A stretch of 64,000 nt of DNA from the NCBI RefSeq assembly GCF_001697225.1, contig NZ_CP014671.1:496001-560000 (forward strand), read 5' to 3'. The notes below the pieces were generated by a model. That model saw nothing but the letters and a program-made list of their open reading frames with translations. It did no database searches and was not told where the DNA came from. Made by a program: the position numbers and the translations under genes. Origin of the DNA: Immundisolibacter cernigliae (lineage in GTDB: Bacteria; Pseudomonadota; Gammaproteobacteria; Immundisolibacterales; Immundisolibacteraceae). Shown here piece after piece: positions 385-11,262 of the stretch (within the stretch, counting starts at the first letter, position 1; every line of letters starts with the position of its first letter).

Positions 385-2451
<2,067 letters not shown>

Positions 2452-2476
2452 GATGGTTGCCCCAGGGTGATCAATT

Positions 2477-4273
2477 TCAGTGGCCAGGCCACAGCATCAA
2501 ATGCTCGACCACCGGCCCCAGCGCCAGCGCCGGCACATAGGTCAGCGCGCCGACCAGCAGCACGATGCCGACCAGCAGTCCCACGAACAGCGGGCCATGG
2601 GTCGGCAGCGTGCCCGGCCCCTGCGCCAGACGCTTCTTGGCCGCCAGCGAGCCGGCTATCGCCAGCACCGGCACGATCACGGCAAAGCGCCCGAACCACA
2701 TCGCGACGCCCAGCCAGCCGTTGAAGAACGGCGTGTTGGCGCCAAGACCCGCGAAGGCGCTGCCGTTGTTGTTGGCGGCGGACGAGAAGGCGTAGAGGAT
2801 TTCAGAGAAACCATGGGCGCCGGGATTGAAGATCCCAGCCCTGCCGGCGTCCGTGACCACAGCAAGCGCGGTGCCGAGCAGCACCAGCGCCGGGGTCATC
2901 AGGATCGCGATCGCCACCATCTTCATGTCGAAGGCCTCGATCTTCTTGCCGAGGTATTCGGGCGTGCGGCCGATCATCAGCCCGGCGATGAACACCGCCA
3001 TCATGGCAAACACCAGCATGCCGTACAGGCCCGAACCGACGCCGCCGAACACGACCTCGCCGAGCTGCATCAGCACCATCGGCACCAGGCCACCGAGCGG
3101 CGTGAAGGAGTCGTGCATGGCGTTGACCGAGCCGTTCGAGGCCGAGGTGGTCGCGGCCGCCCACAGTGCCGAGGCGCCGATGCCGTGGCGGGTCTCCTTG
3201 CCCTCCATGTTGCCGCCCGATTGCAGCGCGCTCACCGTCTGATCGGCGCCGAGCTGGGCGAGCAGCGGATTGCCCTGCTGCTCGAAACTCATGACCGCGA
3301 TGGCAGCGCCGACGAAGATCACCGTCATCGCCGCCAGCACCGCCCAGCCTTGGCGCGTGTCGCCCACGGCCCTGCCGAAGGTGTAGCAGAGCGCGGCAGG
3401 AATCAGCAGCAGCGCCAGCGTCTGAAGAAAATTGGACAGCGGCGTCGGGTTCTCATAGGGATGCGCGGAGTTGACGTTGAAGAAGCCGCCGCCGTTGGTG
3501 CCCAACTGCTTGATGGCGATCTGCGAGGCGGCCGGCCCCATCGGCAAGGTCTGGGTGCTCGCGGCGACGGTCTCGGTGACGGCATTACCCGCGGCATCCG
3601 TCACCGGCTGCGCGGCCGTGTCGAGCTTCGGCGCCTCGTAGCTCACCGGTTCGAGCGTGGTGACTTCCTGGTACGCAGAGAAGTTCTGGACGACGCCCTG
3701 GCTGACCAGTACCAGCGCAAAGACGAACGACAAGGGCAGCAACAGATAGATCGTGACGCGGTACAGATCGGCCCAGAAATTGCCGATGGTCTGCGCCGAA
3801 TGACGCGCGAAGCCGCGAATCAGGGCGAACAGCACCGCGATGCCGGCCGCGGCCGAGACGAAGTTCTGCACCCCGAGCCCGAGCATCTGCGAGAGGTAGC
3901 TCATGGTCGCCTCGCCGCCGTAGCCCTGCCAGTTGGTGTTGGTGACGAAGCTGATGGCGGTGTTGAAGCTCGAATCCGGCGTGACGTTCGCCATCCGCTG
4001 CGGATTGAGCGGCAGCCATAGCTGCAGGCGCTGCAGCGCGTACACCACGAAGAATCCGACCAGGCTGAACAGCAACACCGCCAAGGCGTACTGGAGCCAG
4101 CCCATTTCCTCACGACCGATGCCGCACCAGCGAAACACGCCGGCCTCGAGCCGCGCCAGCGGCCGCCAGCGCGGTGCTTCCATCAGTTTCGCCATGTACA
4201 GGCCAAGCGGCCTCACCGTCGCCAGCAGTACCGTCAGATAAACCGCGAGCAGCACCCAGGATTGCGAGGTCAT
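2477..4273 (-). CDS. kdpA: K+-transporting ATPase subunit A
   Basis: KdpA is the K+-binding, channel-like membrane subunit of the Kdp pump. The product is 598 residues with about ten hydrophobic spans. The four pore-loop signatures are all visible: [38 protein letters not shown] and [12 protein letters not shown]. The frame stays open upstream, but the ATG at 4273 is chosen because it gives the family N-terminus and overlaps the kdpF stop by one base (TGATG), which suggests translational coupling. Confidence 0.97.
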
Positions 4274-4362
4274 CAGAACTCCTCCGCCCGGATCAGGGCG
4301 TAGACGAGATAACCGAGCAACGCCACCGCCAGCGCGCCGCCGATCAGATAGACCACACTCAT
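4273..4362 (-). CDS. kdpF: KdpF small membrane subunit
   Basis: This 29-residue peptide, reading [17 protein letters not shown] then [12 protein letters not shown], is a single hydrophobic span with a short charged tail. That is the form of KdpF, the lipid-like stabilising subunit of the Kdp complex. Its stop codon shares one base with the kdpA start, and its start overlaps the stop of the preceding small ORF in an ATGA arrangement. Size, sequence and position directly before kdpA make the call secure despite the short length. Confidence 0.9.
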
Positions 4363-4634: not shown

Positions 4635-4937
4635 TCAGACGATGGGTTCGTGCACGGTGACCAGCTTGGTGCCGTCCGGAAAGGTGGCTTCCACCTGAAC
4701 GTCAGGGATCATCTCCGGCACGCCTTCCATGACGTCGTCGCGCGTCAGCAGGGTGCGGCCGTAATCCATCATCTCGGCCACCGTGCGGCCGTCGCGGGCG
4801 CCTTCCAGAATCGCCGCGCTGATGAACGCCACGGCCTCCGGGTAGTTGAGCTTCACGCCGCGCGCCTTGCGCCGTTCGGCCAGCAGCGCGGCGGTGAACA
4901 GCAGCAGCTTGTCCTTCTCGCGGGGGGTCAGTTCCAT
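4635..4937 (-). CDS. ureA: Urease subunit gamma
   Basis: UreA is the gamma structural subunit of nickel urease, which hydrolyses urea to ammonia and carbamate. The product is exactly 100 residues, the usual length. It opens [20 protein letters not shown] and contains the family stretch [20 protein letters not shown] and the C-terminal [14 protein letters not shown]. It lies 19 bases downstream of ureD. Normally ureB and ureC follow; here the next gene is the start of the kdp operon, so the catalytic subunit must be encoded elsewhere or be absent. Confidence 0.97.
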
Positions 4938-4956: not shown

Positions 4957-5808
4957 TCAGGTGGCCCAGATGCGCGGCGCCAGCGCGGGCCGACCAAACA
5001 GAGCCGGGCGCAGCACCGCCCACGCATCGGCAAGCGCGCGCTGCACAGTTTCGGCCTGAAACCCAAGCACGCGCAGTGCCAGCACGCCGTCCACGGTGCT
5101 GGCGCCAGCCAGCACGCCGGGATGCGCTTCCATGGCCGCCCGCACGGCGCCGAGGATTTCCTCCGCCGCCACCGGCGCGGCCAGCAAGGTGCCGCTGACG
5201 CAGTGGCCGCGCAGGCCGAACGACGCGTCCAGCAGTGCCGTGCCGTCGTAACGGGCGCGCTCCAGCCACAGCGGCGCGCCGTCCTGCCACAGCTCGAGCG
5301 CCATGCCGAGCCGGCCGGCGTAGCGCTCGCCGCTGTCCGGCCGGCCCAGGCACAGAATTTCCCAGCCGATGAAGCGGCCGCCGGGCGCAAGGTCCACCCG
5401 CGTGGCCACGCGCGCGTGCACACCGGCAAAGGCGATGGTCGGCTGCGGCAGCCATTCGAGCTGCGCGCCCATATCCACGCGCAGCGTCTGGGTGAGCTGC
5501 GCGCACGGGCCAGCGCTGCGGTACAGCCTGTTCGCCGCCGGCGTGGTGATCAGCACACGGCTGTCCAGCCCGGCGTGAATCGCCACGTCCAGCACGTCGC
5601 CGCCGACCACCCCGCCCGGCGGGTGCAGCAGATAGACGTGACAGGCGCCAGCCGGCCCTTCCGGGTGAAAGGGCCGTTGCACGGTCAGCGGCCCGCTGTG
5701 CTCGCGCCGGGCGAGCACGGTGCGCCCGCCCTGTTGTGCGAAGCTCAGGCTGAGGTGTGCCCGCCAGCCGCCGGTGATCTCAGCGTCGGCGCGAACGCGC
5801 ACGAGCAC
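4957..5808 (-). CDS. ureD: Urease accessory protein UreD
   Basis: UreD is the scaffold of the UreD-UreF-UreG complex that delivers nickel to apo-urease. From the GTG at 5808 the product is 283 residues, typical length. Conserved features visible are [33 protein letters not shown], a WLPQ..I.F.G segment, LCLGRP and the terminal RIW. The frame is open farther upstream but matches no UreD there, so a GTG start near ADAEITGGW is preferred; a second GTG at 5802 is equally possible. It overlaps the preceding small ORF by 29 bases. Confidence 0.93.
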
Positions 5809-5986
5809 GCTGCGCGCCCAACAGACCCAGGCCACCGACGCCCAGCGCCAACAGCAGCAGTGCAGTCCACGGGTGGTGCAGCAGCAGATCCGGCAGTCCG
5901 GCAAGCGGCGCGTGGCCGGAATGGGCAAGCGCGACACCGGGCAGCGCAAGCATGGCCAGAAAAAGGGCTTTTGATGAGTGTTTCAT
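5780..5986 (-). CDS. Small exported or membrane peptide between gdmH and ureD
   Basis: This 68-residue protein has a clear signal peptide (MKHSSKALFLAMLALPGVALA), a His-containing motif HSGHAPLAG directly after the likely cleavage site, one strong hydrophobic segment (about residues 38-60) and an Arg-rich C-terminus. The HSGH start followed by a hydrophobic span recalls the N-terminus of HupE/UreJ nickel permeases, but it has only one or two spans where those proteins have six or more. It sits between the guanidinase gene and ureD and overlaps ureD. A role in metal handling is inference only. Confidence 0.65.
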   Translation of the reverse strand: MKHSSKALFLAMLALPGVALAHSGHAPLAGLPDLLLHHPWTALLLLALGVGGLGLLGAQRARARSRRR

Positions 5987-6017
5987 TGGGGTTTCCTTGA
6001 TGTTGGTTGCAAGTCAT

Positions 6018-7184
6018 TCAGCCGCGGATCATGTGTTTGTGCGAGCCCATCTTGCCGTGCGCCACCAGCGTGCCGAGCACGTCCACGCAGGCCCGCACGC
6101 CCAGCAGCGCGGTGATGTCGGACGTGTCGTACGGCGGGGAGACTTCAACCACCTCCATGCCGCACAGGCCTTCCTTGGCCACCGTGCCGATCAGGTACAG
6201 GATCTCGCGCGGCAGAAAGCCGCCCGGCTCCGGCCAGCCAGTGCCCGGCACGAAGCCGCAGTCCACCGAGTCGATGTCGAAGGACAGGTACACCGCGTCG
6301 GTGCCGTCCCAGGCTTTTTCGAGCGCGATTTCGGCCACCTTTTCCAGGCCCAGTTCCACCACGTCGTTCATGGTGATGATGGTGGTGTCGCGCTTGCGGG
6401 CTTCGGCGATGGCCTCGCGCGGCACCTGCCAGCCGCCGATACCGATCTGCACCAGGTTCTTCGCCGGCACGTTGGGCAGATTTGTCGCGTGGAACCATGG
6501 CGTGGTGTGCATGCGCTCGTCGAGGTCCTTTTCCTGGATGTCCGCATGCCGGTCGAAGTGGATGATGCCGATTTTCTTGTCCGTCTCGCGGGCGATGCCG
6601 CGCACGGTGGCAAAGCCGATGGAGTGATCGCCACCCAGGATCACCGGGAAGGCGCCGGAGCGAAACACGTGCCCGACGGCGTTGCTGATCTGGTCGAAGG
6701 TCTTTTCGATGTTGGCCGGGATGGTGAACACGTCGCCGGCGTCGCACAGCGTCATCTGCTCGCGCAGATCCACGCCGATCTCGTAGTTGTACGGCGTGTA
6801 CAGCGCAGAAATGCGGCGCATGCCCTGCGGTCCGAAGCGCGTGCCGGGCCGGTAGGTGGTGCCGCCGTCGAAGGGCACGCCCAGCACACAGGCGTCGTAG
6901 TTGCCGATCAGGTTGGCGTCCTCGCAGTACGGCGCCTTCATGAAGGTGTTGATGCCGGCAAAGTGCGGCAGCTCGCCGCGCGAGAAGGTGGGGATGGTCT
7001 TGTCGTCCAGGCTGTCCGCACCCGGTAGGCCCAGCTTCAGGCCGCGCGCCTGCTCGGCGTGCCAGCGGTCGAGCGGAATCAGCTTTTCCTTGCCCAGCAT
7101 GGCCCAGGAATGCAGGCTGCTCTTGTCGAAACTGGGGTGGTGCTGGCGCACCGCCGGGCCGGTGGGCGAACGCAATCGGGACAT
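6018..7184 (-). CDS. gdmH: Ureohydrolase-family guanidine hydrolase (guanidinase, GdmH type)
   Basis: This 388-residue arginase-superfamily enzyme is called as the nickel-dependent guanidinase that converts guanidine to urea and ammonia. Metal-binding motifs are GGDHS (184-188, His187), FDRHADIQ (Asp211, His213, Asp215) and SFDIDSVD (Asp303, Asp305). Arginases and agmatinases usually have DAHxD where this has DRHAD, followed by the motif ERMHTTPWFHATN; I recall that combination from GdmH proteins. A long N-terminal arm of about 95 residues precedes the core. Position after a guanidine-I riboswitch and importer, and before urease genes, fits exactly. Agmatinase-like activity cannot be excluded from sequence alone. 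Confidence 0.88.
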   Translation of the reverse strand: MSRLRSPTGPAVRQHHPSFDKSSLHSWAMLGKEKLIPLDRWHAEQARGLKLGLPGADSLDDKTIPTFSRGELPHFAGINTFMKAPYCEDANLIGNYDACVLGVPFDGGTTYRPGTRFGPQGMRRISALYTPYNYEIGVDLREQMTLCDAGDVFTIPANIEKTFDQISNAVGHVFRSGAFPVILGGDHSIGFATVRGIARETDKKIGIIHFDRHADIQEKDLDERMHTTPWFHATNLPNVPAKNLVQIGIGGWQVPREAIAEARKRDTTIITMNDVVELGLEKVAEIALEKAWDGTDAVYLSFDIDSVDCGFVPGTGWPEPGGFLPREILYLIGTVAKEGLCGMEVVEVSPPYDTSDITALLGVRACVDVLGTLVAHGKMGSHKHMIRG

Positions 7185-7226: not shown

Positions 7227-8024
7227 TTAAGCAGATGCCGGCGCGCGGCGTGGCCGCATGGCGCTGGCCAGCGCGGCCGCCAGTTCCGGCGACGCGCGGG
7301 CCTCTGGACTGCGCAGCGGCAGGTCGTAGGTGATGGTGGCGCCGTAGGCGCTCGGGTCCTGCGGGTCCCAGCGCGGCTTGTCGAACACCAGCAGGCGCGT
7401 GCCGAGCGCAAAGCCCTCGTGCAGGTCGTGCGTGACCATGAATACGGTAAGACCCAGCCGCTGCCACAGCGCCGTGAGCAGCGCATGCATGTCCTTGCGG
7501 GTGCCCGGATCGAGCGCGCCGAAGGGCTCGTCCAGCAGCAGGATGGCCGGCTCCATCACCAGTGCCTGGGCGATCGCCAGGCGCTGGCGCATGCCGCCGG
7601 ACAGCGCCGCCGGGTATTTGGCCTCGTCGTCGGCCAGGCCCACGGCTTCCAGCATGGCGCGGGCGCGGGACAGGGCAACGCGCCGGGCACGGCCGAAGAT
7701 GTGACCGGTGAAGCGGGCCCGGTCCAGTTCCAGCCCCAGCAGCACGTTGCCCAGCACGGTCAGGTGCGGATAGACCGAGTAGCGCTGGAACACCACGCCG
7801 CGTTCGCGGCCCGGCTCGGCGGCGAGCGGCTTGCCTTCCAGCAGAATCTGCCCGCGCGTGGGTTTGAGCTCCCCCAGCAGGAGGCGCAGAAAGCTGGTCT
7901 TGCCGCAGCCCGACGCGCCGACGATGGTGACCAGCTCGCCGGCCGGCACATGCAGCTCGACCCGCTCCAGCACCGGCGTGGCGCCGTAGCGCAGCCACAG
8001 GCCGTTGACGTCCAGGCCGCTCAT
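7227..8024 (-). CDS. Guanidine/urea-type ABC transporter, ATP-binding protein
   Basis: This is a NitT/TauT-class ABC ATPase of 265 residues, the cytoplasmic motor of the importer encoded with it. Walker A is GASGCGKT (residues 36-43), the signature is LSGGMRQRLA (141-150), Walker B is LLLDEP (162-167) and the switch histidine is in VTHDLHEGF. The ATG at 8024 overlaps the permease stop by four bases, so I reject the longer in-frame extension into the permease gene. The substrate is inferred from the riboswitch and the downstream guanidinase. Confidence 0.9.
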   Translation of the reverse strand: MSGLDVNGLWLRYGATPVLERVELHVPAGELVTIVGASGCGKTSFLRLLLGELKPTRGQILLEGKPLAAEPGRERGVVFQRYSVYPHLTVLGNVLLGLELDRARFTGHIFGRARRVALSRARAMLEAVGLADDEAKYPAALSGGMRQRLAIAQALVMEPAILLLDEPFGALDPGTRKDMHALLTALWQRLGLTVFMVTHDLHEGFALGTRLLVFDKPRWDPQDPSAYGATITYDLPLRSPEARASPELAAALASAMRPRRAPASA

Positions 8025-8839
8025 GCGCTGTGGTCCTCGACCCAGGGGAACCAGCGGCGGGCGAGCGCCGCCAGCGTGCGGTCCATCGCATAGGCCAGCA
8101 GCGTGATCCACGCCACGTACGGCAGGATCACGTCCATGGCCATGTACCGCCGCACCAGGAATATCCGGTAGCCCAGCCCATCGGTGGCAGCGATGGCCTC
8201 GGCCGCGATCAAAAACAGCCAGGCCGGCCCCAATGTCAGGCGCAGGCCGTGAACGAGCGCCGGCAGGGTTTGCGGAATCACCACCCGCAGAGCGATCTGC
8301 CAGGTGTTGGCACCCAGCGTCTGCGCCTTGATCAGCTGTTCGCGCGGAATCTCGGCCGCCCGCTGGGCCAGATCGCGCATCAGGAACGGCGCCACGCCAA
8401 AGCCGATCAGCACGATCTTGGACAGCTCGCCCAGCCCCAGCACGATGAACAGGATCGGCAGCAGCGCCAGCGGCGGGATCATCGACAGCACCGCCACCAG
8501 CGGCGCCAGTGTGGCGCGCACCAGCGGCACCAGGCCCATCGCCACGCCCACCGCAAAGCCCAGCACGGCGCTCACGCCCACGCCCCAGGCCAGGCGCTGC
8601 AGGCTGGCGGCGGTGTCCGTCCACAGCAGCACGTCGCCGGAGCGCGCATCCGGCTGCGTGGCCAGGCGCAGCGTGGTGTCGACCAGCGTGGCCAGCGACG
8701 GCAGCAGCTTGTCGTTGGGGTTCGCCGCCAGGCGCGCGTCGGAGCCGATCAGGTAGGCCACCGCCAGCAGCGCCAGCGGCAGCACCCCCAATACCAGCGC
8801 GCCGGCGCGGCCGGGGCGGCGATTGAGCAGGCGGGTCAT
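8021..8839 (-). CDS. Guanidine/urea-type ABC transporter, permease
   Basis: The 272-residue protein is a binding-protein-dependent permease of the SsuC/TauC type with about six hydrophobic spans. The cytoplasmic coupling (EAA-like) loop is seen around AAEIPREQLIKAQTLGA. It starts 23 bases after the binding-protein gene and overlaps the ATPase gene by four bases, so the three form one importer. Substrate assignment to guanidine is by context. Confidence 0.9.
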   Translation of the reverse strand: MTRLLNRRPGRAGALVLGVLPLALLAVAYLIGSDARLAANPNDKLLPSLATLVDTTLRLATQPDARSGDVLLWTDTAASLQRLAWGVGVSAVLGFAVGVAMGLVPLVRATLAPLVAVLSMIPPLALLPILFIVLGLGELSKIVLIGFGVAPFLMRDLAQRAAEIPREQLIKAQTLGANTWQIALRVVIPQTLPALVHGLRLTLGPAWLFLIAAEAIAATDGLGYRIFLVRRYMAMDVILPYVAWITLLAYAMDRTLAALARRWFPWVEDHSA

Positions 8840-8862: not shown

Positions 8863-9924
8863 TTACAGCGCGCCGTCGGCCGCCATCTTCATGTAGCTAT
8901 CGTCAAAACGCAGCTTCACGTTGCCGGCATCGCCCAGTGTTTTGCCGCCCGGAAAGGCAATGCCCACCGCATCGGCGCTCCTGGCGCCCTCGCCCAGCAG
9001 CCCGTGGGCGAACGAGAACGTGCGCACGTAATCCATGGTGCGCAGCAGGGCCGGATCGCGGCTGAAGGCCACCGCCTCGGGCGGCGTGTAGAACATCTGC
9101 GTGGTGGCGAGCTGGCTTTCGAAGCCGGCCAGGTCGGTTCCGGAAGCCTTCGCCATGGCCTCGCGCGCGGCCTTGCCGGCGGCGTCCTGTGCGGCCATCA
9201 GCGCCAGGGTTTCGTACCAGGCGCCGGTCAGCGCCTTGCCCAGCGCCGGGTTGGCCGCGAGCGTGGCGGAGTTGACCACCAGCAGGTCGATGATCTCGCC
9301 GGGAATGTCGGCCGAATCGAAAACCAGCGACGCGCCGGGCAGCGCCTTGACCTCGGCCAGCTGCGGGTTCCAGGTGACGATGGCATCCACCTCCGGCGCC
9401 GCCGCGGCGGCCACGATGTCGGCATCGCCGGTGTTGACCACGGTGATGTCGCGCTCGGACAGACCCACGCTTTCCAGGCCGCGCGCCAGCAGGTAGTGCG
9501 AAACCGACAGCTCGACCAGGTTCACCTTGCGGCCCTTGATGGCCTTCAGGTCCGTGGCGCCCTTGAGCACCACGCCGTCGTTGCCGTTCGAGAAATCGCC
9601 CACGATCAGCGCCGTGGAGTCCACCCCGCCGGCCGCCGGGATGGTCAGCGCGTCCATGTTGGTCATCACGCAGCCGTCGAAGGCGCCGGCGGTGTACTGG
9701 TTGATGGACTCGACGTAATCGTTGATCTGCACCACGTCGATGCCGATGCCGTACTTGTCGGCCCACTTCTTGACGATGCCGGCGTCGGCCGCGTGGCCCC
9801 AGGGCATCCAGCCGACATAGATGGACCAGGCGATGCGGAAGTCTTTCTTCGGTTCGGCCTGCACTGGACCGACCAGACCGACGGTCAGCAAGGCGGCAAG
9901 CAGCAGGGTGGTCAAGCGGTTCAT
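8863..9924 (-). CDS. ABC transporter substrate-binding protein (guanidine or urea-type)
   Basis: This 353-residue periplasmic binding protein has a signal peptide (about residues 1-23, ending GPVQA) and a NitT/TauT-type fold. Features include SIYVGWMPWGHA, INQYTAGAFDGCVMTNMDAL and a repeated TIPAAGG/VVLKGATDL core. It resembles the binding proteins found in urea-carboxylase and guanidine-carboxylase regions under ykkC riboswitches. The ATG at 9924 follows a GGGAGCG ribosome site. It is the first gene after the riboswitch. Guanidine as ligand is strongly suggested by context but not shown. Confidence 0.9.
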   Translation of the reverse strand: MNRLTTLLLAALLTVGLVGPVQAEPKKDFRIAWSIYVGWMPWGHAADAGIVKKWADKYGIGIDVVQINDYVESINQYTAGAFDGCVMTNMDALTIPAAGGVDSTALIVGDFSNGNDGVVLKGATDLKAIKGRKVNLVELSVSHYLLARGLESVGLSERDITVVNTGDADIVAAAAAPEVDAIVTWNPQLAEVKALPGASLVFDSADIPGEIIDLLVVNSATLAANPALGKALTGAWYETLALMAAQDAAGKAAREAMAKASGTDLAGFESQLATTQMFYTPPEAVAFSRDPALLRTMDYVRTFSFAHGLLGEGARSADAVGIAFPGGKTLGDAGNVKLRFDDSYMKMAADGAL

Positions 9925-9946
9925 GGTGCGCTCCCTGTGGTGGAAG

Positions 9947-9961
9947 CGCCGGGGGCCGGCG
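9947..9961 (-). promoter_or_regulatory. Hairpin between guanidine aptamer and first start codon
   Basis: A perfect 6-bp stem (CGCCGG/CCGGCG) with a 3-base loop lies between the riboswitch aptamer and the binding-protein start codon. It could belong to the expression platform, but there is no strong U tract and the mechanism (termination or ribosome-site masking) cannot be decided by eye. Confidence 0.35.
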
Positions 9962-9999
9962 AGCGAAATGCCAGGCGCCGTGGACCCCAGCGCAGCTAA

Positions 10000-10100
10000 C
10001 ATCTCCCGGGCTTTTGTCCCGCCGTGTACCCGGTCCTGTGGGGGCCGGGCTGCCTCTCTCGGACCAGCACCCGGCCGCAGCCGAATCGGAACCCTAGACG
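10000..10100 (-). ncRNA. Guanidine-I riboswitch (ykkC class)
   Basis: On the minus strand all conserved blocks of the guanidine-I aptamer appear in order: CTAGGGTTCCG (10097-10087), CTGGTCCGAGAG, a GGCCGGG/CCCGGCC stem, ACGGCGGGAC and GGGACAAAAGCCCGGGAGA (10020-10002). The aptamer ends about 75 bases before the binding-protein start. Guanidine binding to this class normally turns on detoxification or degradation genes, here a guanidine importer and hydrolase. The GGGACAAAAGCCC stem-loop and the downstream genes favour guanidine over the ppGpp or PRPP variants of the ykkC fold. Confidence 0.95.
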
Positions 10101-10104
10101 CACC

Positions 10105-11262
10105 GTGAGCTTTGCAATCCCTGTGCCACACCCTGCCGCCACGACCACGCAGACGCTTCCCAACGCCGGGCGGATCACCTTCGATCCGCGTCCGCAGGCC
10201 GCTTCCGTCGCCGTGGTGCTGCGCCTGGCGGGCGGCACGCGCGAGGAAACCGCCGCCGATGCCGGGCATCTGCACCTGCTCGAACACCTGCTGCTGCGGC
10301 GCACCGCCCGCGCCGATTCGTCGGCACTCGCCCGGCGCGTCATGGCGCTTGGGGGCATGGTCAATGCCGAGACCGGCCGCGAACATCTGGCGCTGATGGG
10401 CCGCGCGCCGGCTGCACTGGCGTCCGCACTGGCCGACCTGCTGGTCGAGTGCCTGTGCGAACCCGCCTTCGACGAAACCGACCTGGCACTGGAACTGGGC
10501 GTGATCGAGGCCGAACGCACTTTCGTGGGGCACACGCCGCCCGACGAGTCCCTGATCCGGCTCGCCTGGCCGCAGCACCCGCTCGGCCGGCTGCTGCTGC
10601 CGGCCGATCCGGCACCGGCCAACCCGGCTGCGCTGCAGCGACTGTGGGCGCGCCAGTGCGTCGGAACACGGCTCGGCGTGGCGGTCGTCGGTGCCTTCGA
10701 TGTTGCCGCGGTCGAAGCAGCGCTTGCACCGCTGGCGAAGCTGCCCGCCGGCACCGCCCCTGACTGGGGAGCACCGCCGCAGTTCGTGCCCGGCCGCTAC
10801 GGCGATCTGTGCGAGGAGCGGCCAGCAAGCCTGCTGTGGGCGCTGCCGTGCACACCCTACGACCGAGTCAATACGGCCGGCTGGGAACTGACTGCAACGG
10901 TGCTGGAATTCACCCTTGCCGCGGCGCTGCGGGACACCGGTCTTGCCTATGCGTGCGCGGTGTGGCCAGAGGTCTACTCGGACACCGGCCTGATCGCGGT
11001 GCAGGTATCGACGGTGCCGGGCCGGGTCGCCGCCTGCGCCGACGCGGTGAACGCCTGCCTGGATACTCTGTGCAAGACCGGCCCGGCGCCGGAGCTGCTG
11101 AGCCTTGCGCGCGCTGCCCGCTCGGCGCGCGCAGCGCTGGCCAGGGACCACCTGGAAGACCGGGCGCGGGCGCTGACGCAGCATCCGCCCGGCATAGACC
11201 CGGCGCCCGGCCAACGGATCGTGCTGCCGCCCGCCGGCTGCGTGTTGCAGATCGTGGTGTGA
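10105..11262 (+). CDS. M16-family (pitrilysin-like) metallopeptidase
   Basis: The product (385 residues from a GTG at 10105) carries the inverted zinc motif HLLEH (residues 57-61 from that start), with further glutamates about 75 residues downstream in LELGVIEAERTF, as in M16 zinc peptidases. It is a single-copy, roughly two-domain subunit rather than a full insulinase. The in-frame ATG at 10024 lies inside the opposite-strand riboswitch, so GTG is preferred. It is divergent from the guanidine operon and convergent with the MaoC gene. The substrate is unknown; PqqF-like or processing-peptidase-like roles are both possible. Confidence 0.75.
   Translation: MSFAIPVPHPAATTTQTLPNAGRITFDPRPQAASVAVVLRLAGGTREETAADAGHLHLLEHLLLRRTARADSSALARRVMALGGMVNAETGREHLALMGRAPAALASALADLLVECLCEPAFDETDLALELGVIEAERTFVGHTPPDESLIRLAWPQHPLGRLLLPADPAPANPAALQRLWARQCVGTRLGVAVVGAFDVAAVEAALAPLAKLPAGTAPDWGAPPQFVPGRYGDLCEERPASLLWALPCTPYDRVNTAGWELTATVLEFTLAAALRDTGLAYACAVWPEVYSDTGLIAVQVSTVPGRVAACADAVNACLDTLCKTGPAPELLSLARAARSARAALARDHLEDRARALTQHPPGIDPAPGQRIVLPPAGCVLQIVV

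Follow-up and report, generated by a model that had tools for sequence, protein, structure and literature searches.

A short one-span peptide with a signal sequence, encoded in the guanidine operon of Immundisolibacter cernigliae, shares its architecture with peptides encoded beside nickel genes

The guanidine operon of Immundisolibacter cernigliae contains, between gdmH and ureD, a small gene whose product joins a signal sequence, a histidine motif and a single membrane span, and we repeatedly find peptides built in this way beside nickel genes. What the analysis directly establishes is that the gene exists, how its product is built and in which operon it lies, that one genome pair shows purifying selection on it, and that the build recurs in this manner. 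The peptides make up a recurring and apparently unnamed class at nickel operons, which is defined by architecture and position and whose function we infer. As to that function, we give about an even chance to the reading that the peptide, with its one span, is related to HupE/UreJ or is its counterpart in function (a 'mini-HupE') and captures nickel in the periplasm. The window referred to below is the whole stretch of DNA that was analysed, 64,000 nucleotides of contig NZ_CP014671.1; its relevant features are collected in Table 1.

Table 1. Features of the guanidine operon and its peptide gene, in positions of the window.
Feature	Position	Strand	Basis
Guanidine-I riboswitch, operon head	10001..10108	-	RF00442, 83.7 bits vs 63
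ABC substrate-binding protein (start approximate; match from frame residue 51)	8863..9999	-	TIGR03427, 561 bits vs cut-off 333.9
ABC transporter permease	8021..8839	-	PF00528
ABC transporter ATPase (start approximate)	7227..8021	-	PF00005
gdmH, guanidinase, arginase family	6018..7184	-	PF00491; best solved relatives 9fek, 7esr/7oi1
AAGGA, Shine-Dalgarno-like, ATG 7 nt away	5994..5998	-	sequence reading
68-aa exported one-span peptide	5780..5986	-	translation; sole detector match in window; ortholog in G001
Signal peptide, residues 1-21, Ala-Leu-Ala end	5924..5986	-	read from translation
HSGH codons, predicted mature N-terminus	5912..5923	-	read from translation; HPGH in G001
Single membrane span, about residues 39-57	5816..5872	-	hydropathy used in detector
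ureD; GTG start at 5808 or 5802	4957..5808	-	PF01774; start codons
ureA, urease gamma	4635..4937	-	PF00547, TIGR00193

The initial annotation, made from the letters alone, described a 68-residue peptide with a signal sequence, an HSGH motif and a single span, a description borne out by translation, hydropathy and the detector introduced below. The 68-aa translation reads MKHSSKALFLAMLALPGVALA, followed by HSGH, the hydrophobic span and an arginine-rich tail that ends in RARARSRRR; cysteine and a proline-rich end are both absent. If the cleavage site is read as ALA|HSGH, the predicted mature peptide comprises the 47 residues after the signal peptide and begins with histidine. Searches of Pfam gave sub-threshold matches only (a holin model, E 0.029; DUF6732, E 0.2), and there were no matches in NCBIfam, nor in the PDB at E up to 1.

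The operon runs from the guanidine-I riboswitch through the ABC transporter, gdmH and the peptide gene to ureD and ureA. The best solved relatives of its guanidinase are themselves named as guanidinases in the available text of PMC11410670. The peptide gene begins 31 nt after the end of gdmH, and both likely GTG starts of ureD lie within it; because the two genes overlap here, translational coupling of ureD is likely whatever the peptide does. A search of the window's genome for HupE and NicO found neither.

Two further features of the surroundings were recorded. In this genome and in that of a congener (G000 and G001), the urease operon is split by a kdp potassium-pump cassette, which lies on the same strand between ureD-ureA and ureB-ureC (window 385-4360, minus strand; L086, L087) and consists of KdpA (PF03814) and, as we read them, KdpB (an E1-E2 ATPase) and KdpD (a histidine-kinase domain). 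Divergent from the operon head is an M16-peptidase-like ORF (window 10024-11262, plus strand) that, as listed, overlaps the guanidine-I riboswitch on the opposite strand; its true start may be further in.

The congeneric genome G001 has an ortholog of the peptide, 91% identical, in the same place, and this is the only one of the seven other genomes of the order to keep it (two of eight in all, G000 and G001). The initial annotation had held that a lack of homologues in related genomes, or of purifying selection on the ORF in close relatives, would count against it; homologues are present, and the peptide is under purifying selection, as judged from one genome pair and 15 differences, of which 6 are nonsynonymous against about 10.5 (~70%) expected (dN/dS 0.27, P = 0.016). 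Four other close peptide pairs were compared: constraint is evident in L072/L074 (P = 2e-5) and L040/L045 (P = 2e-4), borderline in a third (0.048), and absent from L054/L055 (P = 0.43). That the frame is a spurious ORF with no protein function is very improbable: sequence conservation across the set is weak, the window's own test draws on 15 differences in one genome pair, and L054/L055 fits such a reading, but selection in the window pair and in the two constrained pairs, together with an architecture background near zero, speaks against it. We regard the ORF as confirmed.

A direct search with the peptide matched nine of 369 genomes of the class, two of them the genus itself; the other matches include L090, beside sodN, and L096, which has no recognised neighbour. 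Four other gdmH loci have ureD downstream, and in none of them does the gap hold the peptide: L011 and L014 carry a HALDPDH-type membrane protein, the gap of L012 (4991-5440) holds nothing but tandemly repeated 43-aa ORFs, and in L017 the gap is short. The exact order gdmH-peptide-ureD was thus observed in this genus only. The earlier statement that the peptide is 'conserved in form between gdmH and ureD' accordingly stands in part: similar architectures turn up next to gdmH, next to ureD and next to further nickel genes, whereas the exact order was observed in the genus only (one of the seven other genomes of the order).

Recurrence was assessed with a detector that requires the h-region of a signal, a small-x-small site followed by histidine, a second histidine within nine residues, a later span, and a length of 36-115 aa. 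Its one match in the 64-kb window is the ORF at 5780-5986, and stretches sampled at even intervals from four genomes, 800 kb in total, gave no match. Among the best 80 gdmH loci, 27 have a match on the same strand and at most 1 kb downstream of gdmH, while elsewhere in those loci there are two matches, both on the other strand, in 1.84 million strand-bases; no detector match occurs in 53 of the 80. All 27 fall in the 65 loci classed here as alphaproteobacterial in type, and none in the other 15. The detector is strict: five further loci (L037, L040, L045, L056 and L081) carry a peptide after gdmH by eye and are outside the count of 27. Matches in L064 and L066 were dropped as lying on the other strand, as were L120 and the second match in L230 (other strand of neighbouring genes); those in L201, L244 and L246 are internal starts within HupE frames and were dropped too.

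The position after gdmH also holds other kinds of product. Many alphaproteobacterial loci have a histidine-rich ORF of about 110-180 aa after gdmH, which in L019, L036 and L058, for example, measures about 130-160 aa and precedes the peptide; the one checked (L036, 7178-7633) matches no Pfam or NCBIfam family. By its appearance, this ORF could encode a partner that serves to load GdmH with nickel. In 8 of the 15 loci not alphaproteobacterial in type, a frame directly after gdmH carries the motif HA[LF][DE]xDH. Proteins in this position match NicO below the cut-off in L026 (23.7 vs 27.7 bits) and DsbD_2 in L011 (24.9) and L013 (29.6; cut-off 24.9 bits), and the HALDPDH-type protein of L014 matches no family; we take UreH permeases to lie near the NicO and DsbD_2 families, and UreH to be the presumable label for the HALDPDH-type proteins. 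According to the available text of PMC11399263, hupE lies directly downstream in an operon for metformin hydrolase, an enzyme of the same family.

Beyond guanidinase, the peptide in L090 (74 aa, with AHSGHDH) lies directly upstream of a nickel superoxide dismutase (NiSOD) gene and a SodX-like gene. A Sod_Ni search of the 369 class genomes gave ten loci in nine genomes, and five of the ten have a peptide directly upstream of sodN; L099, a NiSOD locus with no detector match, has a signal-plus-span frame in the same slot that lacks the leading histidine. UreD was searched in 143 class genomes, of which 35 have ureD, yielding 30 loci: the peptide lies directly upstream of ureD in six, the window's own included, and the detector finds nothing in the other 24. 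In the remaining five of the six, 0-10 nt separate the peptide gene from the first possible ureD start. The initial annotation had pointed to other gdmH and ureD loci as the place for homologues, and peptides of the same build, putative homologues, are indeed found there (27 of 80 and 6 of 30).

A profile from a 27-row alignment of the peptides (A1) matched 30 of 190 alphaproteobacterial and 51 of 369 class genomes, and the 30 strongest loci of each set were examined. The class loci comprise 24 small peptides (22 by detector; L243 and L250 by eye), four full-length HupE (L242, L244, L246, L249) and two others. Thirteen of the 24 peptides are outside the A1 rows, one of them (L221) being a near-identical congener of a row. 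Six of these are at urease genes, upstream of ureD (L235, L236, L239, L240) or after ureG (L248, L250), and five at hydrogenase genes, after hupL (L232, L237, L238, L241) or, in L229, downstream of an AIRS-domain gene, read here as hypE; the rest adjoin NiSOD (L221) and a larC-type Ni_insertion gene (L243). In L243 (939-2994) the small peptide lies between two Ni_insertion ORFs of the larC type, one a C-terminal part and one nearly full length. The alphaproteobacterial loci comprise nine small peptides (eight outside A1), eight HupE by reading, and 13 with neither a small peptide nor a recognised HupE. The new peptides lie between ureA and ureB (L193, L200, L213, L220), after ureG (L192), and between cbtA and a gene read as cobB (L194); L198 and L204 have no nickel or cobalt neighbour. 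In sum, of the 21 new profile-found peptides, 18 have nickel genes and one has cobalt genes for neighbours, and two have neither, figures that show where relatives of A1 lie rather than where all exported histidine peptides do, because A1 was built from nickel loci.

The composition of the peptides bears on the metal. At least three histidines occur in the first 30 residues of 68 of the 70 distinct peptides, a number that the detector does not impose (the second histidine within nine residues is imposed and proves nothing), and cysteine occurs in six of the 70. Because histidines are many and cysteine is rare, Ni2+ or Co2+ is favoured over copper. The suggestion of nickel handling in the initial annotation gains support from context, in that the peptides occur at loci for guanidinase, urease, NiSOD, [NiFe]-hydrogenase and larC.

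The same positions bear on two other explanations. The peptide might be a nascent-chain nickel sensor of the CutF-like kind, in which metal binding during export would alter translation of the overlapping ureD or sodN, in cis only. Its gene overlaps the likely ureD start here and closely adjoins ureD or sodN elsewhere, and CutF-like proteins with histidine-only motifs are described beside HupE/UreJ genes in the available text of PMC9973294. We nevertheless consider a sensor unlikely. The peptide follows gdmH, and by a rough ORF call the next ORF is on the other strand in 16 of the 27 gdmH loci (same strand in 10, none in 1), which weakens any leader-peptide reading; peptides also lie after hupL, after ureG and between ureA and ureB; and the peptide lacks the cysteine and the proline-rich end while having a second hydrophobic span. 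The initial annotation also offered membrane anchoring, and the peptide could be an anchor or assembly factor through which the complex that matures urease or guanidinase docks at the inner membrane, as the tight coupling to ureD and the position beside ureG in L192, L248 and L250 might suggest. This is improbable, as the same build occurs at hydrogenase, NiSOD, larC and cobalamin genes, which have no common maturation complex, and the cytoplasmic tail is short and varied; nothing we found specifically favours anchoring of the enzymes.

The relation to HupE/UreJ was examined separately. We take HX5DH in the first span to be a HupE/UreJ feature, and among eight HupE N-termini seven have HPxxGxDH and the eighth HPMLGADH. 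The motif is not present in the window peptide, which has HHPWTALLLL there, and the motif scan lists neither it nor the G001 peptide. The window peptide has no match to PF04955 at E up to 1, and on a HupE N-terminal profile it scores -1.8 bits, which 2904 of 4990 scored shuffles reach. Membership of HupE/UreJ is ruled out for it by profile, span count and motif.

Other members of the set come closer, and HupE itself occupies the slots of the peptides: after hupL (L242, L249), after ureG (L246), and directly upstream of ureD (G007), which is the window's own order. Two hydrogenase-linked peptides pass the PF04955 cut-off of 23 (L232, 29.5; L238, 24.4), and five score 10-24 bits on the HupE N-terminal profile, a level attained by 4 of 3550 shuffles. 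When the window peptide is compared with the G007 HupE, a comparison chosen after the locus had been seen, its score is equalled by 0.5-1.6% of shuffles (that of the G001 copy by 0.2-1.0%); DLL, His-Pro-aromatic-Thr and the residues leading into the span are retained in the alignment, and a short stretch with the acidic-His half of the motif is lost. The full-length alphaproteobacterial profile gives the window peptide a score reached by 6 of 2000 shuffles, or 87 of 2000 with the signal peptide fixed, while 167 and 531 of 2000 reach it on the pooled alphaproteobacterial and short-form profiles (870 and 1267 with the signal kept), and the mature peptide has no significant similarity to the alphaproteobacterial and hydrogenase long forms (4480 of 5000 shuffles as good). 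The hydrogenase group profile, one of five groups tried, gives P 0.02-0.03; the others give 0.30-0.31 (urease), 0.07-0.08 (HXDH-like), 0.78-0.87 (NiSOD) and 0.28-0.31 (pooled). Judging from these comparisons we conclude that the build is shared and appears in part related to HupE, from which the window peptide may plausibly have descended. The label 'HupE-like' in the initial annotation therefore fits the shared slots and the bridging peptides that match HupE, but not the window peptide itself, which has one span, no profile match and no HX5DH.

Occupation of HupE slots could also mean that the peptides are one-helix nickel transporters, several copies forming a pore or permease that replaces HupE outright. 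In L193, L204, L229, L232, L238 and L241 an HX4-5[DE]H motif lies close to the span, which would suit this, as would the failure to find HupE or NicO in the window's genome; the window peptide lacks that motif, however, and no one-span nickel permease is known, so that such a transporter seems quite unlikely.

We favour periplasmic nickel capture, which would work as follows. Signal peptidase would cut behind Ala-Leu-Ala, so that the mature peptide starts in the periplasm with a free histidine and has another at its fourth residue. Its one helix would serve as the anchor, with the basic tail on the inner side; Ni2+ could then be bound by the amine of the N-terminus and the side chains of the histidines, kept at the inner membrane, and passed on to an import route that supplies the guanidinase and urease expressed with the peptide. 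Of this scheme, export and cleavage, the binding and passing on of nickel, and the descent from HupE are inferred. In the available text of PMC12537917, some N-terminal-histidine proteins are reported to bind nickel and others to be fused to HupE-type permeases, and N-terminal-histidine domains fused to HupE/UreJ-2 permeases are reported to bind metal; a membrane-anchored periplasmic nickel catcher is therefore favoured. This reading is further argued for by the riboswitch-headed guanidine operon with its two nickel-enzyme systems, by the recurrence of the architecture beside gdmH, ureD and sodN and the position of 18 of 21 profile-found peptides at nickel genes, by HupE in the same slots, by L232 and L238 above the Pfam cut-off, and by the failure to find HupE and NicO in the genome. 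Against it, the mature window peptide shows no significant similarity to the HupE, urease, NiSOD or pooled profiles and lacks HX5DH, two of the 21 new peptides lie beside neither nickel nor cobalt genes, and many gdmH and ureD loci have no match.

A 2009 survey (PMC2667541, available text) counted 62 bacterial organisms with nickel enzymes and no recognised nickel transporter, and the available text of PMC11410670 leaves unexplained how the guanidinase of Nitrospira inopinata is loaded with nickel. A peptide found beside guanidinase, urease, NiSOD, hydrogenase and larC, in HupE slots, is a candidate for part of this gap in nickel supply; if that is true, a multi-span permease family would have one-span relatives. 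A bolder proposal, that one-helix HupE-derived peptides are a widespread nickel device in at least five nickel systems and, as oligomers, the missing inner-membrane importer where HupE and NicO go unrecognised, is rather unlikely.

Several known systems invite comparison; in the available open-licence texts we found neither a one-span peptide of nickel operons nor DUF6732 mentioned. The DUF6732 proteins (PF20506) are alike in being short, with a signal, AHxGH and one span, but DUF6732 proper adjoins the cobalt genes cbiX and cobH, whereas the window peptide is at nickel genes and scores below the cut-off (12 bits vs 27, E 0.2). DUF6732 exceeds its cut-off in 10 of 34 alphaproteobacterial genomes taken from gdmH loci; in nine of these ten loci, examined by tblastn, cobH lies beside the peptide in all nine and cbiX in eight (both confirmed by Pfam in L138), and the tenth (L140) reads alike by eye. 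By way of weaker DUF6732 matches, peptides were located immediately downstream of the gene for the hydrogenase large subunit (L147, L148) and in the interval from ureA to ureB (L149, L150). The position of DUF6732, a family listed as of unknown function, beside cbiX and cobH in L137-L146 suggests a cobalt role.

Anglerases and DUF4198 proteins have a histidine exposed by signal cleavage, as is predicted for the peptide, and this histidine is proposed to catch periplasmic nickel or other metal for a HupE-type permease; they are folded domains of large size, of which Ang-1 and Ang-2 are joined to a permease, whereas the window peptide is a bare short peptide with one helix (PMC12537917, available text). 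CutF-like leaders are likewise small exported metal-motif proteins encoded just upstream of a metalloenzyme gene, but in the available text of PMC9973294 they have a cysteine metal motif and a proline-rich C-terminus, both of which the window peptide lacks while having a membrane span, and its relatives, unlike those leaders, are not always upstream of their target; histidine-only CutF-like clusters do exist and are reported there beside HupE/UreJ genes. The HALDPDH-type membrane proteins of L011 and L014 fill the same gdmH-ureD slot but have about 200 aa. HupE/UreJ, finally, is a full permease of about 180-200 aa with several spans, against 68 aa and one span after the signal in the window peptide; the likeness lies in an exported start with histidine at the predicted mature N-terminus, in a first span that some of the peptides approach, and in the same operon slots beside nickel genes, that of the window peptide being between gdmH and ureD.
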